From an uncultured Alphaproteobacteria bacterium (GTDB lineage: Bacteria > Pseudomonadota > Alphaproteobacteria > UBA11222): a stretch of 64,000 nt of DNA. Below are positions 3,549-9,883 of the stretch, piece after piece. How positions within the stretch are numbered: position 1 is the stretch's first letter; the number at the start of each line of letters is the position of its first letter. A program made the translations under genes and the position numbers. Location of the stretch: assembly GCA_947258435.1 (NCBI GenBank), contig CAMYID010000024.1, positions 62,001 through 126,000 of the forward strand. The letters are read 5' to 3'. The notes under the pieces were generated by a model. The model did not search any database. It saw only the letters and a list, made by a program, of their open reading frames with translations, and was not told where the DNA came from.

Positions 3549-3713
3549 AAATTCAGTCAGAAATATTATTATGTAAAAATTGAATAAATACAGTTGATAT
3601 CTGGATGATTAAAATACGAATTATTAACAAATAAGGTATTTTTGTGTTTACTATTGTTACAGATTGAATTCAACTCCGGAGTTTCTATATCCTGTTATTG
3701 GGAGGTGCTTGAG
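3549..3713. promoter_or_regulatory. AT-rich divergent intergenic region
   Basis: The sequence from about 3550 to 3680 is strongly AT-rich against the GC-rich surroundings and lies between divergently transcribed genes, so it should hold promoters for both. At its right end a GGGAGG box (3700-3705) stands eight bases before a TTG codon at 3714. No conserved operator was recognised. Confidence 0.55.
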
Positions 3714-4331
3714 TTGCACAATAACAGGATCCTATACAGTATTTTTAAGTATTGGCATGCGCGGATTCAAGCAGGCCATCTTCCCGCACGGGCGCAGATT
3801 TTTCCTGCCCAGATTTCAAATTTACTTCCTTTTCTGTTCCTGGCTGATGTCGAAAGCGACGGTGGCATTCGTCTGCGTCTGATCGGAACACATATCGAGC
3901 GGTTGCTGGGGTTCGATCTGACAGGCTGTGTACTTGATGCAAGAGACAGTTTCCATTCCGCTTGCGGGGTGCAGCGCGATTTTTACGACGCGGTAACGCA
4001 GCGGCTTGTCATCGGTTCGACCCACGAGCTGTACTATGACACGACGCTTGAGATGGGTATACACGATCAGCGGACCGCCGAAAATATCGAGCCAATCATG
4101 TTGCGCTACGATCGGCTGATTTTGCCTTTGTCGCGCGATGGGGAGCGGGTCGATATGCTGTTTGGCGGACTTGTAGCAGTACAACCGTGCCATTCGGTGC
4201 CGCACCGTGATGCGGAGCCGATTGTCTTTACCGAGGTTGAGCGTTTCTGTTTGCCGCCGCCCTATATCTGGCCGCAGCGGGAAGGCGTCTGGCAGGGCGA
4301 TCTTTCACAAAGCCGCGCGGTTCTGTCCTGA
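3714..4331 (+). CDS. PAS domain protein of the alphaproteobacterial PAS_5 type
   Basis: Single-domain PAS_5-like protein of unknown signalling role. The N-terminal pattern YWHARIQAGHLPAR, followed by a pro-leucine strand (LLPFLFLADVE) and IRLRLIGTHIERLLGFDLTG, is typical of this family, which occurs as stand-alone proteins in alphaproteobacteria. I chose TTG at 3714 because GGGAGG precedes it at ideal spacing and because it begins right before the conserved part; this gives 205 residues. An upstream in-frame start at 3642 would add a poorly conserved N-terminus lacking a ribosome site. No output domain (kinase, GGDEF) is attached. Confidence 0.75.
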   Translation: MHNNRILYSIFKYWHARIQAGHLPARAQIFPAQISNLLPFLFLADVESDGGIRLRLIGTHIERLLGFDLTGCVLDARDSFHSACGVQRDFYDAVTQRLVIGSTHELYYDTTLEMGIHDQRTAENIEPIMLRYDRLILPLSRDGERVDMLFGGLVAVQPCHSVPHRDAEPIVFTEVERFCLPPPYIWPQREGVWQGDLSQSRAVLS

Positions 4332-4362: not shown

Positions 4363-4875
4363 TCAGCCTGCTGTTTGCTCCGCCGGCGGGGTGCCGTTGT
4401 CTTCGAGCGCAATTTCCACGCCCGGCTGCGATTTGGATGTGCGGATGGTCAGTGAGGTCTTCACACTTGCGACATTTGGCGCAGCGGTCAGATGTTCGGT
4501 CAGAAAAGACTGGAATTCCGACAGATCGCGCGCCACGCATTTCAGAATGAAGTCGATTTCTCCATTCAGCATGTGGCATTCGCGGACAATAGGCCATTTT
4601 GCGACACGTTGTTCAAATGTGGTCAGATCCGATTCCGCCTGACTGCGCAGCGACACCATGGCAAAGACCGTGACCTGATATCCCAGCAGTTTCGTATTCA
4701 CCTCCGCATGATAGCCGGTGATAAAACCCGCTTCTTCCAGCGCCCGTACCCGCCGCAAACAGGGTGGCGCGGAAATGCCGACCCGCCGCGCAAGCTCGAC
4801 ATTGGTCATCCGGCCGTCCGCCAGTAATTCGCGGAGGATGAGTTGATCGATTTCGTCGAGTTTTACCCGTTGCAT
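4363..4875 (-). CDS. Lrp/AsnC family transcriptional regulator
   Basis: Feast/famine DNA-binding protein. N-terminal helix-turn-helix (residues 5-60: LDEIDQLILRELLADGRMTN, then VELARRVGISAPPCLRRVRALEEAGFI) is the AsnC signature, followed by the RAM ligand-binding domain (about 70-150). The 170 residues include a short hydrophilic tail after residue 150, slightly longer than usual. It converges with the PAS gene and is divergent from the ELM1 operon; its upstream region holds an AT-rich palindrome at 5046-5058 that could be an Lrp-type site. Target genes unknown. Confidence 0.93.
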   Translation of the reverse strand: MQRVKLDEIDQLILRELLADGRMTNVELARRVGISAPPCLRRVRALEEAGFITGYHAEVNTKLLGYQVTVFAMVSLRSQAESDLTTFEQRVAKWPIVRECHMLNGEIDFILKCVARDLSEFQSFLTEHLTAAPNVASVKTSLTIRTSKSQPGVEIALEDNGTPPAEQTAG

Positions 4876-5109: not shown

Positions 5110-6147
5110 ATGCTTGATTCGGGAAATTCACCAACATGCTGGATCGTAACCGACGGCGCTGCCGGTATGGAGAATCAGTGCCTTGGCCTTGCCGAGCGGC
5201 TGGGGCTTGTGCCCGATATCAAGCGTATCGCATTGCGCGCGCCCTGGGGGTGGTTGCCACCGGCAATCGGGGCGCGGCGTTTGGCATTTCCGCTAGCCGG
5301 CATAGAAAACAGGCAGGCGGCGGGGCTTGTTCCGCCCTGGCCTGACCTGCTGATCGCGACGGGCCGACGCACGGTGGGAGCAAGTGTTGCGATCCGCCGC
5401 CTAAGCGCCGATGCGCGACCGGTGCCTACCCTGACGGTCCAGATCCAGAACCCGCGTTTCCCGCTTTCAGCCTTCGATCTGGTCGTGGTACCCGCCCATG
5501 ATCGGCTGTCCGGGCCCAATGTGCTGACGACACGGGGGGCACTACACCGGGTGACGCGCGCCAAGCTCGATCAGGCCGCCGCGCAATTTGCCGCAGCACT
5601 CGCCGAATTGCCCCGCCCGCTTGTGACGGTATCAATCGGCGGCCCCAATAGCGCTTATCGCATGACACCGGTGGAAATCGGGCGGCTTTGCGCGGGGCTG
5701 CGCGCTCTTGCCGTGGCGAGCGGTGCAGGCTTTGCGGTCACCGCGTCGCGCCGGACGGGGGATGCGAATATCGCCGCGCTGCGGCGCGGGCTTGCCGATG
5801 TGCCGCACACGCTGTGGGACGGGCAGGGGGCGGGCGAAAACCCCTATTTCGGCTATCTGGGGCTGGCCGATGCGATCATCGTCACCGGGGATTCGGTCAA
5901 TATGGTGACCGAGGCCTGCGCGGCGGGCAAACCGGTTTATGTGTTTGATCTGCCTGGCGGCTCGGTAAAGTTCGATATGTTTCACACGTCCATGCAGGCC
6001 TGCGGTGCGGTGCGCAAATTCGTGCCAGGCGAGGTGCGGCAGCTTGAATCATGGACCCTGCCTGATATTGATGATACCGGAATGGTGGCAGCGGCGGTGC
6101 GGCAGATGCTTGATGCCCACGCCCAAGGACAGGCGACCCATGGATAA
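5110..6147 (+). CDS. ELM1-family protein (bacterial 'mitochondrial fission ELM1' family)
   Basis: Belongs to the family named after plant ELM1, common in alphaproteobacteria and of unknown biochemical function; the fold resembles GT-B glycosyltransferases. The N-terminus WIVTDGAAGMENQCLGLAE is the family hallmark. The C-terminal half has the sugar-nucleotide-like stretch ADAIIVTGDSVNMVTEACA followed by GKPVYVFDLPGGSVKFDMFH (about 255-295). Start: ATG at 5110; a TTG directly before it is less likely. No strong ribosome site is seen. It is the first gene of a plus-strand operon whose next gene overlaps it by 8 bp. A role in glycan or envelope synthesis is inference only. Confidence 0.9.
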   Translation: MLDSGNSPTCWIVTDGAAGMENQCLGLAERLGLVPDIKRIALRAPWGWLPPAIGARRLAFPLAGIENRQAAGLVPPWPDLLIATGRRTVGASVAIRRLSADARPVPTLTVQIQNPRFPLSAFDLVVVPAHDRLSGPNVLTTRGALHRVTRAKLDQAAAQFAAALAELPRPLVTVSIGGPNSAYRMTPVEIGRLCAGLRALAVASGAGFAVTASRRTGDANIAALRRGLADVPHTLWDGQGAGENPYFGYLGLADAIIVTGDSVNMVTEACAAGKPVYVFDLPGGSVKFDMFHTSMQACGAVRKFVPGEVRQLESWTLPDIDDTGMVAAAVRQMLDAHAQGQATHG

Positions 6148-6778
6148 TTCCGTATCTAGATTTATGGATTTGCGGGCATTGCAGGCAAGCCCGCTTCATA
6201 CCGATCCGTTCGATTACATTGTCGTACCGAATTTCGTAAGCGGCGCGGCGCTTTCCGATGTCAATCGCGACTATCCGCAGGTGCCGGGTGCAGGTTCCTA
6301 TCCGCCGTCTGAATTATCTGTGGGTGGGGCGTTTGCCACCTTGCTTGCGGCGCTGGACGGCGCTGACTTCGCTGCGGCGATGTCGCAGAAGTTCGGGATC
6401 GATCTGTCTTCTTATCCGACGATGTTCACGGTGCGGGGCTATTGCAGGCTGGGGGATGGCAGGATCCATCCCGACAGCGAAAGCAAGATTATCACGGTTC
6501 TGCTATATCTGAACGATGAGTGGCGGGATTCAGGTGGCCGGCTGCGGCTGTTGCGCAGTGCTGAGGATCTGGAAGATTACGCGGCGGAGGTTCCACCCCA
6601 CGGTGGAACATTGCTGGCATTCCGCCGCTGCGATCATAGCTGGCATGGCCACGAACCGTTTGAAGGGCAGCGCCGTGCAATACAGATGAACTGGGTCACA
6701 AACGATGGCATTGTCCGGCGTGAACAAAGGCGGCACCGCGTTTCGGCACTGGCGAAGCGGCTTAACCCGTTTTCTTAA
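6140..6778 (+). CDS. 2-oxoglutarate/Fe(II)-dependent oxygenase
   Basis: Predicted dioxygenase of the prolyl-4-hydroxylase-like 2OG-Fe(II) type. Iron ligands are visible as His110-x-Asp112 (GRIHPDSES) and a distal His (169 or 171, in HSWHGHEPF), with Arg178/179 in GQRRAIQMNW as the 2-oxoglutarate anchor. Length 212. Start: ATG at 6140 overlaps the last 8 bases of the ELM1 gene (ATGGATAA), which implies coupling; an upstream in-frame extension lies inside the ELM1 gene and is unlikely. The substrate is unknown; related enzymes hydroxylate proteins, small molecules or lipids. Followed after 8 bp by the 658-residue protein gene. Confidence 0.87.
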   Translation: MDNSVSRFMDLRALQASPLHTDPFDYIVVPNFVSGAALSDVNRDYPQVPGAGSYPPSELSVGGAFATLLAALDGADFAAAMSQKFGIDLSSYPTMFTVRGYCRLGDGRIHPDSESKIITVLLYLNDEWRDSGGRLRLLRSAEDLEDYAAEVPPHGGTLLAFRRCDHSWHGHEPFEGQRRAIQMNWVTNDGIVRREQRRHRVSALAKRLNPFS

Positions 6779-6786
6779 GAGGTGGC

Positions 6787-8763
6787 ATGGCGCTTCGTAT
6801 CGAGACATTTTCCAATAGCGATCTGCGGCGTGGGTGGCGTCCGGGGAACAATGCCGGCGGACATGCCTTGTTCAAGGCGCTTGGACATCCGCTTGCGGCG
6901 CGAAAGGGGGCTGCGCTTGTTGATGCCTGCGCTGCGGCAGGTCCGGTGGCAATTTATGATCCGCGCGACACGGCAGCAGCATTTGATGCGCTGTTTCAGC
7001 TTTCCACCCGCTGTGAGATTGCGGAAGTGTTTGTGCAGCGCGTCGAGGATCGCGGGCTTAAGCGGCTCGGTCAGTCGGCAAAACTCATCAGTGAGCTGAA
7101 GAGTTCGCGCGCCGCTACCCTGCTTGTTCTGGCATTCGACAGTGCGCGTCTGATCGATCAGCTGCGTTCCCTGTTACCCGAAGGGATGCGGGTTTTTTCC
7201 CTCGATGGGATGCGGCTAGATGCGGATATGCTTACCAATGCGGATGATTATGTCGATCCGCTGAACTTTGCGACGAATTTCGCCTTGCTGCGCGATGTCG
7301 CACCCAGCGGAGCGTGCGCAGGTCTGCACACCCGTCTTACAACCGCAAATTACTGGTCGATGCATGGGGCGCCCGACCCTGAATTGTGGCTTTGCCTGTT
7401 CGATGCGCAAGGGGAGGTGCTGGCCGAATGGCGGCAGCCACTACCCGAAGCCGGCGCGCTCATCACTATCGACAGTCAGCAGATCCGCGAACGTTTCGGG
7501 CTTGGTGATTTCTGCGGCTCCTTGTTTATCCATGCGTTGCGGGTGGCGGGGCACGATATCGTCAAATATGCGCTCGATATTTACGGGGATGGGGGGCGCG
7601 CGCTGTCCTGCAGCCATGACGCCAATGCCTGGCCGGCAGATTATTTCGCGGGCATGCCTGCGCCGGGGCCCGATGAGCGTTTGATCCTGCATATCCAGAA
7701 CAGCCATCCGACCCCGATCCCGTCCGGGGCGGTCGGGCTTGGCATCATGGGCGGACAGCAGGTCAGTTTGCTTGAGCGCGAGATCGCGCCATTTGCGACC
7801 TATTCGCTCGATATTGCGGATTTGCTGCCCGATGCAGCCTGGCCCGATCAGATCGAAATTCACGCCGGCCGCTATTTCGTCCGGCCGCGTTATGAACTGG
7901 TGGGCGACAATGGCCGCCGTCGTATCGCGCATGCCAATGTGGAACGCACCGATCTTGTTCCGAACCCGGATATTCCCGACCTGTCTGAGGTGATGGGCAA
8001 GGGTTATATCATGCCGTTGCCGGTGTTGCCGATCGGGGAATTCAGCTCGACAATCCTGCCCACGCCCATGGCTACCGGGCAAATGGAACTGCCGGTGCGG
8101 GCCGATCTTTACGATATGAGCGGGGAATGTATCGTGCGCCGCTTCATGGGGCGGCTGCAGCGGCGCGACAGCGTGCCGCTTGCACTCGATAGCTGGCTTT
8201 CGGAAGCGGGCGCCGCCCTGCCCTCCGGTGCGGGGCATGTCGAGCTTGTCTACGATTTTCGCGAGGGTGGGGAAGCGGATGGCTGGCTGCACGCGCTTGG
8301 ACAGTATACCCAGCGTGCAAGTGGCCATATGGCGGAGACGATCTTTGGTGCGCATATCTATAACACGCCGATCATCTACAAGGATGAGCCGCAATCCTAT
8401 ACCGGATCCCCCCCAGGCCTGACGACGCGGCTGTTTTTGCGGCTTGGGCAGAATTACGGCTCCGGTATGGACGGGCTCTGCCATCTTATTTATCCCGCCT
8501 CGATGCCGTGGCACCCGCTGTCCGACACCTGGCTTATACTGCATGACGGTGATGGCAAGCCGGTCTGCGAACAGCATCTGCAGATCCCCTGTGGCGGCAG
8601 CCGTTTCTGGCGGTTCAGCGAGATATTCGCACCGTCAGAACGGGCAGCGGCAGGGCCGGATGCCTATGTCATCGTGCGCGATACAAGCTGCCGTCTGTTC
8701 GGGTTTCATGGCCTGCAGCAGGGGGATGCGGGGTTCTGTCTCGACCATATGTTCGGGTTTTGA
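6787..8763 (+). CDS. Unrecognised 658-residue protein with four internal beta-rich repeats
   Basis: I do not recognise this family. No signal peptide or membrane segment is seen, so it is probably cytosolic. After an N-terminal mixed region (1-190) I see four related modules at about 198-252, 298-371, 433-492 and 580-642. Each has a hydrophobic strand ending in a D/G-rich turn (LFDAQGEVL, LGIMGGQQV, LYDMSGECI, LHDGDGKPV), then a polar strand, a short helix or loop, and a closing hydrophobic strand (GSLFIHALR, DQIEIHAGR, GHVELVYDF, DAYVIVRDT). This suggests four tandem beta-sandwich-like domains. It starts 8 bp after the oxygenase stop with AAGAGGTGGC just before ATG, so it belongs to the ELM1-oxygenase operon. 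It could be an oxygenase partner or a ligand-binding protein; this is inference. Confidence 0.8.
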   Translation: MALRIETFSNSDLRRGWRPGNNAGGHALFKALGHPLAARKGAALVDACAAAGPVAIYDPRDTAAAFDALFQLSTRCEIAEVFVQRVEDRGLKRLGQSAKLISELKSSRAATLLVLAFDSARLIDQLRSLLPEGMRVFSLDGMRLDADMLTNADDYVDPLNFATNFALLRDVAPSGACAGLHTRLTTANYWSMHGAPDPELWLCLFDAQGEVLAEWRQPLPEAGALITIDSQQIRERFGLGDFCGSLFIHALRVAGHDIVKYALDIYGDGGRALSCSHDANAWPADYFAGMPAPGPDERLILHIQNSHPTPIPSGAVGLGIMGGQQVSLLEREIAPFATYSLDIADLLPDAAWPDQIEIHAGRYFVRPRYELVGDNGRRRIAHANVERTDLVPNPDIPDLSEVMGKGYIMPLPVLPIGEFSSTILPTPMATGQMELPVRADLYDMSGECIVRRFMGRLQRRDSVPLALDSWLSEAGAALPSGAGHVELVYDFREGGEADGWLHALGQYTQRASGHMAETIFGAHIYNTPIIYKDEPQSYTGSPPGLTTRLFLRLGQNYGSGMDGLCHLIYPASMPWHPLSDTWLILHDGDGKPVCEQHLQIPCGGSRFWRFSEIFAPSERAAAGPDAYVIVRDTSCRLFGFHGLQQGDAGFCLDHMFGF

Positions 8764-8866: not shown

Positions 8867-9883
8867 ATGCGAAACAGGCAGATGGTCATCGCGAAAATTC
8901 CGCGCGGGGCATTGCAGGTCTCCGACTTTGAGATGCGGGACACGGAAATCCCCGAACCGGGGGCGGGGCAACTGCTCGTCCGGACCTTGCGCTTGTCGAT
9001 GGATCCGGCAACGCGTGCGCGGATTTCTGATGCGGGATATCCCGGCATGCTGGGAGTTGGCGATGTGATGGCCGGTTCGGCGCTTGGGGAAGTGGTGACG
9101 GCGCACGCGGAGGGTTTCGGGCCGGGCGATATTGTTGAATGCCATACAGGCTGGCAGGACTATTCGCTGCAGGAGCCGGATGCGGTGGCGACATTCGACA
9201 GGCTCGGTACGCTGGAGGAACATCTCAGCCTTTATGGTGTCAGTGGGCTGACCGGTTATTTCGGTATGCGCGAAGTGGGGGAACCGGCGGCTGGCAAGAC
9301 AGTGGTGGTTTCGGCTGCTGGTGGCGCGGTCGGCCATATTGCGGGGCAGGTGGCAAAGCAGCTTGGCGCGCATGTGGTGGGTATCGTCGGTTCCGATGAG
9401 AAGGCGCGCTGGCTGACCGAAACGCTGGGGCTTGATGCGGCCATCAATCGCAGGGGAGAGCCATTGTCGGCGCAGTTGAAGGCCGCCTGTCCCGATGGGA
9501 TCGATATATATTTCGATAATGTGGGGGGTGAAATTCTGGAAGCTGTTCTGCCCCGGATGAACGAGCATGGCCGGGTCGTCTGCTGCGGCTATGCCTCGCA
9601 ATATGACGTGGCGGCGCCTGTGACGGAGACAAAGGGTGTGCCCGCGCTGCTTGTCCGCAAACGTTTGCGTATGGAAGGCTTTGTCGTGATGGATTATTAC
9701 GACAAGAAGCAGGCAGCGCGTGAGACACTGGCCCAGTGGCTTGGCGCGGGCCGGATCAAACTGTCGGTCGATATGCTTGAGGGGCTTGAGCGCGCGCCCG
9801 AGGCTTTTGTCGGGTTGTTTGGCGGTGACAATCGCGGCAAGCGACTGGTCAGGGTGGCCGACCCCTCGGCGAATGCCGGTTAA
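8867..9883 (+). CDS. NADP-dependent MDR-family oxidoreductase (prostaglandin/leukotriene reductase-like)
   Basis: Zinc-free medium-chain reductase of the CurA/leukotriene B4 dehydrogenase group, expected to reduce the C=C bond of enones with NADPH. Visible marks: the N-terminal NRQMVIAKIPRG, LSMDPATRARISD, the nucleotide-binding glycine motif AAGGAVGHIAGQVAKQLGA (about 150-170), and the DNVGGEILEAVLPRM segment. Start: ATG at 8867 has AGGGAG seven bases upstream; an ATG at 8861 is too close to it. The 103-bp gap from the previous gene suggests it may have its own promoter. Its last 4 bases overlap the convergent aminotransferase gene. Confidence 0.9.
   Translation: MRNRQMVIAKIPRGALQVSDFEMRDTEIPEPGAGQLLVRTLRLSMDPATRARISDAGYPGMLGVGDVMAGSALGEVVTAHAEGFGPGDIVECHTGWQDYSLQEPDAVATFDRLGTLEEHLSLYGVSGLTGYFGMREVGEPAAGKTVVVSAAGGAVGHIAGQVAKQLGAHVVGIVGSDEKARWLTETLGLDAAINRRGEPLSAQLKAACPDGIDIYFDNVGGEILEAVLPRMNEHGRVVCCGYASQYDVAAPVTETKGVPALLVRKRLRMEGFVVMDYYDKKQAARETLAQWLGAGRIKLSVDMLEGLERAPEAFVGLFGGDNRGKRLVRVADPSANAG

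Follow-up and report, generated by a model that had tools for sequence, protein, structure and literature searches.

Proteins of the ELM1 family (PF06258, Mito_fiss_Elm1) are found in most sampled alphaproteobacteria (240 of 289 genomes), yet annotation still labels them mitochondrial fission proteins. In Acinetobacter baumannii, the gene A1S_2903, annotated as ELM1-like, is needed for the third 3-deoxy-D-manno-oct-2-ulosonic acid (Kdo) of the core (PMC10936431). Its product, KdoT, acts in vitro as a transferase using cytidine monophosphate-Kdo (CMP-Kdo), the KdoIII transferase, and has been given a GT-B model; mutagenesis of its SRRT motif shows that R180 matters, and a homologue from Rickettsia gave partial replacement of KdoT (PMC12856342). 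Here we describe a three-gene locus from a window of 64,000 nucleotides of an uncultured Alphaproteobacteria bacterium (assembly GCA_947258435.1, contig CAMYID010000024.1, positions 62,001 to 126,000), in which a gene of this family (ELM1) is followed by genes for a 2-oxoglutarate (2OG)-Fe(II) oxygenase (OXY) and for a protein of 658 residues (P658). An initial annotation, made from the sequence alone, had treated the ELM1 family as being without a proven role in bacteria, a statement that the identification of A1S_2903 as a CMP-Kdo transferase has made outdated (PMC12856342; genetics in PMC10936431).

We report two results. First, the trio is conserved and co-inherited as a unit, every sampled genome with P658 also having ELM1, and the three genes very probably form a functional unit. 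Second, P658 belongs to an undescribed family that is dependent on ELM1, and there is about an even chance that the trio is an assembly module of the lipopolysaccharide (LPS) inner core, in which ELM1 would perform Kdo-type transfer and OXY hydroxylation, with P658 as a partner.

A conserved, co-inherited unit

Of the 289 genomes of the class sample, drawn evenly and covering 218 genera, 68 (in 52 genera) have P658, and every one of the 68 genomes also has ELM1; among 60 first relatives of the window, P658 was present in 14. A phylum-wide sample of 299 genomes contained no P658 outside the Alphaproteobacteria, all matches being members of the class. Strong matches to OXY-type proteins occur in 56 class genomes, of which 46 also carry P658; OXY is found alone in 10 genomes and P658 alone in 22 (Fisher p 8e-27, uncorrected for kinship), and most ELM1-bearing genomes have neither. 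The initial annotation had held that rare co-occurrence would count against a single unit, and the sample points the other way.

Gene order leads to the same view. In at least 54 of the 69 places where P658 occurs, ELM1 is encoded upstream of it within 8 kb and on the same strand, with OXY between the two in at least 32 of these, both counts being lower bounds because some contigs are short. This is the neighbourhood comparison that had been suggested for P658, and it agrees with the proposal of one unit, which is conserved across many alphaproteobacterial families.

At 40 ELM1 loci of genomes lacking P658, the neighbours were trxB (30 loci), lrp (28), greA (22), lysR (21) and carB (19), commonly in the order greA-<lrp-ELM1>-trxB-lysR and often preceded by carB. 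Since this order is kept where P658 is absent, ELM1 is the ancestral gene of an old carB-greA-<lrp-ELM1>-trxB-lysR locus, and OXY-P658 is an optional cassette inserted between ELM1 and trxB. The trio therefore stands as a conserved set, but what is specific about it is the OXY-P658 cassette. The lrp gene adjoins ELM1 in most ELM1-linked P658 loci; being shared with the P658-negative loci, it was rejected as a unit-specific part, and its product is a candidate regulator of the trio. The initial annotation described the trio correctly but missed this constant neighbour, which comes with the older locus. The MDR reductase gene downstream, whose membership it had left open, is not a member of the unit, as it is retained as a neighbour only in a genome of the same genus. 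A PAS_5 (MopJ-like) gene that adjoins lrp (window 3642-4331, plus strand) is found beside the trio only in the window's family.

In the window's own family and at one further locus, Lrp-ELM1-OXY-P658 occurs without carB, greA or trxB around it. Outside the ancestral locus, ELM1-OXY-P658 is also found at one locus and ELM1-P658 at three, and at yet another all three genes stand together in the permuted order OXY-P658-ELM1. This persistence outside the ancestral surroundings, once with permutation, argues for more than inherited order. Distances between P658 proteins correlate with CarB distances (r 0.83) and with ELM1 distances (r 0.77), an indication of mainly vertical descent; on the ELM1 tree, genomes with and without P658 are interspersed (13 changes), a pattern consistent with repeated loss or gain of P658. 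Plasmid and phage searches gave no match, and the idea of P658 as a mobile or phage-borne gene was rejected. In two genomes P658 is apparently split in two pieces, by assembly error or decay.

Within the window (Table 1), re-reading of the sequence found the gene coordinates, the overlap and the gaps given by the initial annotation exact to the base. The OXY ATG lies inside the last ELM1 codons, giving an overlap of 8 bp; a spacer of 8 bp separates the OXY stop from the P658 ATG, and the MDR reductase ATG at 8867 follows the P658 stop after a gap of 103 bp. A simple scan for promoter and terminator sites returned a count no higher than in shuffled sequence. An open reading frame of 378 codons antisense to P658 (window 7441-8577, minus strand) is probably a by-product of codon bias.

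Table 1. Features of the ELM1-OXY-P658 locus (window positions; E, expectation value)
Feature	Position	Strand	Evidence
ELM1, PF06258 glycosyltransferase-like gene, 345 aa	5110..6147	+	PF06258 E 5e-101, SRRT, His-Asp
SRRT codons of ELM1, S213-R214-R215-T216	5746..5757	+	Sequence, alignment; matches motif tested in KdoT
OXY, 2OG-Fe(II) oxygenase gene, 212 aa	6140..6778	+	PF13640 E 1e-10, facial triad
P658, undescribed family, 658 aa	6787..8763	+	Distribution, model, no family match
P658 N-terminal alpha/beta (Rossmann-like) domain, residues ~26-158	6862..7260	+	Model; boundary approximate
P658 four beta-sandwiches, residues ~159-268, 269-400, 401-530, 540-658	7261..8760	+	Model
Lrp/AsnC regulator gene, divergent from ELM1	4363..4875	-	PF01037/PF13412

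Predicted roles of the three proteins

ELM1 matches PF06258 with 338 bits (cut-off 27) over profile positions 1-304 of 304. Its R215 and T216 are invariant in the alignment, as are His130-Asp131, and the SRRT motif, intact in the window's ELM1, recurs in almost all of the 66 alphaproteobacterial ELM1 proteins examined. The window's genome contains the Kdo transferase WaaA (PF04413, E 3e-55) and two heptosyltransferase-type genes, and WaaA is present in 66 of the 68 genomes with P658 and in 55 of the 56 with OXY; heptosyltransferase-type genes (PF01075) gave no clear separation of OXY/P658-positive from negative genomes. ELM1 is likely to be a glycosyltransferase of the LPS core, and from homology and context we infer that its sugar would be Kdo. 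The glycan link suggested at the outset is plausible.

OXY matches PF13640 with 42.8 bits (cut-off 27). The HxD and His/Arg residues that had been read as intact are so: the triad H110, D112 and H169 and the basic residues R178 and R179 are invariant in 11 homologues, so that OXY is very probably catalytically active. The closest relatives in the PDB are 9blq, a 'putative hydroxylase' (E 1e-16), and 9ei6, followed weakly by the EGLN prolyl hydroxylases; the literature on 9blq and 9ei6 offered nothing relevant. In the OXY tree, the proteins encoded next to P658 mostly cluster, and stand-alone paralogues form a separate clade. A second subfamily of 2OG oxygenases (OXYb, with no Pfam match in the one member tested) is encoded just upstream of ELM1 at two loci, overlapping it by 8 bp at one and adjacent at the other; an OXY paralogue adjoins ELM1 at a further locus, and another has the order ELM1-OXYb-OXY-P658. 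No such oxygenases were found near ELM1 at the 40 P658-negative loci. Four loci elsewhere carry an OXY paralogue in tandem with OXYb, followed in one case by a radical S-adenosylmethionine (SAM) gene, and these tandems are possibly a separate modification cluster.

P658 had been reported as unrecognised, and it indeed falls in no Pfam or NCBIfam family, nor did any of 20 homologues have a convincing Pfam family. Its AlphaFold2 model (pLDDT 88, pTM 0.89) combines an alpha/beta domain with four beta-sandwiches, the first, third and fourth of which share weak profile similarity. Foldseek comparison of the model returned only serial Ig/macroglobulin-type sandwiches, with TM-scores of at most 0.18, and no global match among PDB and viral structures. 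Derivation of the N-terminal domain from a degenerate Rossmann half of ELM1 was unsupported (hhalign probability 12% over 27 columns), and a model of that domain folded alone from a single sequence was poor (pLDDT 40) and was not used. About 90 residues of P658 count as invariant (97% or more) among 53 homologues; many are Asp, Arg or Trp, and nine are His, at positions 34, 249, 256, 277, 382, 484, 502, 523 and 654. Such constraint is strong for a scaffold, and P658 may have an enzymatic role. No signal-like segment was seen by eye at its N-terminus, so that P658 is probably cytosolic, alongside ELM1, and we consider it somewhat likely to be a direct partner of ELM1.

A proposed inner-core module and its alternatives

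In the reading that we favour, ELM1 would be a KdoT-like GT-B enzyme that adds Kdo or a related ulosonic acid to Kdo-lipid A on the inner membrane's cytosolic face, its SRRT arginines holding the CMP-sugar donor. P658 would be a cytosolic partner, required by many ELM1 enzymes or modulating them, whose beta-sandwiches might hold or present the acceptor, or whose invariant His, Asp and Arg might carry out a further step. OXY would then hydroxylate the transferred sugar or the acceptor as a convergent counterpart of KdoO, ELM1-P658 being the core pair and OXY an optional decoration; that OXY acts on a glycan is possible, if short of probable. At two loci, PAP2 phosphatase and PMT/ArnT-like transferase genes stand between ELM1 and P658 (L060, 6077-11905; L061, 5169-11227), the transferase gene on the opposite strand; lipid A modification is carried out by enzymes of these kinds. 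We offer only tentatively, as rather doubtful, the wider proposal that P658 is the founding member of a new family, whose proteins would serve ELM1-type (KdoT-like) transferases as cytosolic enzymes or obligate cofactors, and that, with an OXY unrelated in sequence to KdoO, it defines an undescribed alphaproteobacterial route for adding and hydroxylating an inner-core ulosonic acid.

Several observations weigh against an inner-core module. With WaaA in 87% of all sampled genomes, finding it says little; moreover, 18 genomes with ELM1 lack WaaA and 29 with WaaA lack ELM1, so that ELM1 is not strictly tied to Kdo. Apart from ELM1 itself, the trio has no adjoining LPS gene at most loci. OXY was rejected as a member of KdoO, having no PF11004 match at E <= 1 and an hhalign probability of 0.2% against a KdoO protein (true KdoO was rare, in 2 of 64 genomes). 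Unrelated genes surround the stand-alone OXY genes, with no consistent functional theme. Among the 68 genomes with P658, 22 have no strong OXY match, and P658 could not be placed in any catalytic or binding family, sequence searches of Pfam, NCBIfam and PDB having given no match.

It is rather unlikely, in our estimate, that the unit is real but that ELM1 uses another nucleotide sugar and acceptor, in a glycolipid or envelope glycan on which OXY and P658 also act. PF06258 is broad, and several genomes without WaaA hold up to three divergent ELM1 copies (three matches each in four of them), which suggests non-Kdo roles for ELM1 and a family that is not specific to Kdo only. However, almost all ELM1 proteins examined conserve the SRRT motif that was tested in KdoT, the Rickettsia homologue partly replaced KdoT (PMC12856342), and nearly all P658-bearing genomes (66 of 68) have WaaA, even if the interspersion of ELM1 proteins with and without P658 on the tree means that substrate need not follow P658.

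The trio could also be a regulated protein complex, with OXY as a protein hydroxylase of prolyl-4-hydroxylase/EGLN type acting on P658 or on another protein, a distinctly unlikely case. The similarity to 9blq, 9ei6 and, weakly, the EGLN enzymes favours it, and so does the setting of stand-alone OXY in three genomes of one genus, next to a class-II tRNA-synthetase-like (PF00152, EpmA-like) gene and a lysine-2,3-aminomutase-like radical SAM (EpmB-like) gene, where it could be a hydroxylase of elongation factor P. On the other side, a fourth genome of that genus is without this arrangement, sugar and lipid hydroxylases also belong to the superfamily of OXY, and P658 persists in the 22 genomes where OXY has no strong match.

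That the adjacency of functionally unrelated genes merely reflects intact inheritance of the carB-greA-lrp-ELM1-trxB-lysR locus is very improbable, for although P658-negative genomes also conserve that locus and P658 distances track CarB, the genes stay together outside it as well, once permuted, no sampled genome has P658 without ELM1, the co-occurrence of OXY and P658 is far above expectation, and ELM1 pairs elsewhere with 2OG oxygenases of other subfamilies.

Significance and comparison with described systems

The trio joins an ELM1 protein with a biochemically tested relative, an oxygenase of clear chemistry and a member of an undescribed family. The link to KdoT, together with a consistent partner and a hydroxylase, provides a direct route to testing the role of ELM1 across the class, which would reveal how the LPS core differs in Alphaproteobacteria and might bear on the origin of plant ELM1.

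Among described proteins, those of macroglobulin/Ig type resemble P658 only in general fold, through their serial beta-sandwiches, whereas P658 has in addition an N-terminal alpha/beta domain, and the best TM-score was 0.18. KdoT and the ELM1 of the window are both ELM1-type proteins and similar in size; both have the SRRT motif and a conserved His-Asp, and both come from a host that has WaaA. They differ in that KdoT acts with GnaT (GT4) in core synthesis, whereas the partners of the window's ELM1 are OXY and P658, and in that Kdo transfer was assayed for KdoT and is predicted from sequence for ELM1. KdoO (PF11004), an Fe(II)/2OG Kdo 3-hydroxylase, elsewhere converts Kdo to Ko. OXY belongs to the same enzyme superfamily but is of PF13640 type, with no detectable homology to KdoO; if OXY hydroxylates Kdo the two would be functional parallels, and hydroxylation of a Kdo-type sugar by OXY would be convergent with that by KdoO.

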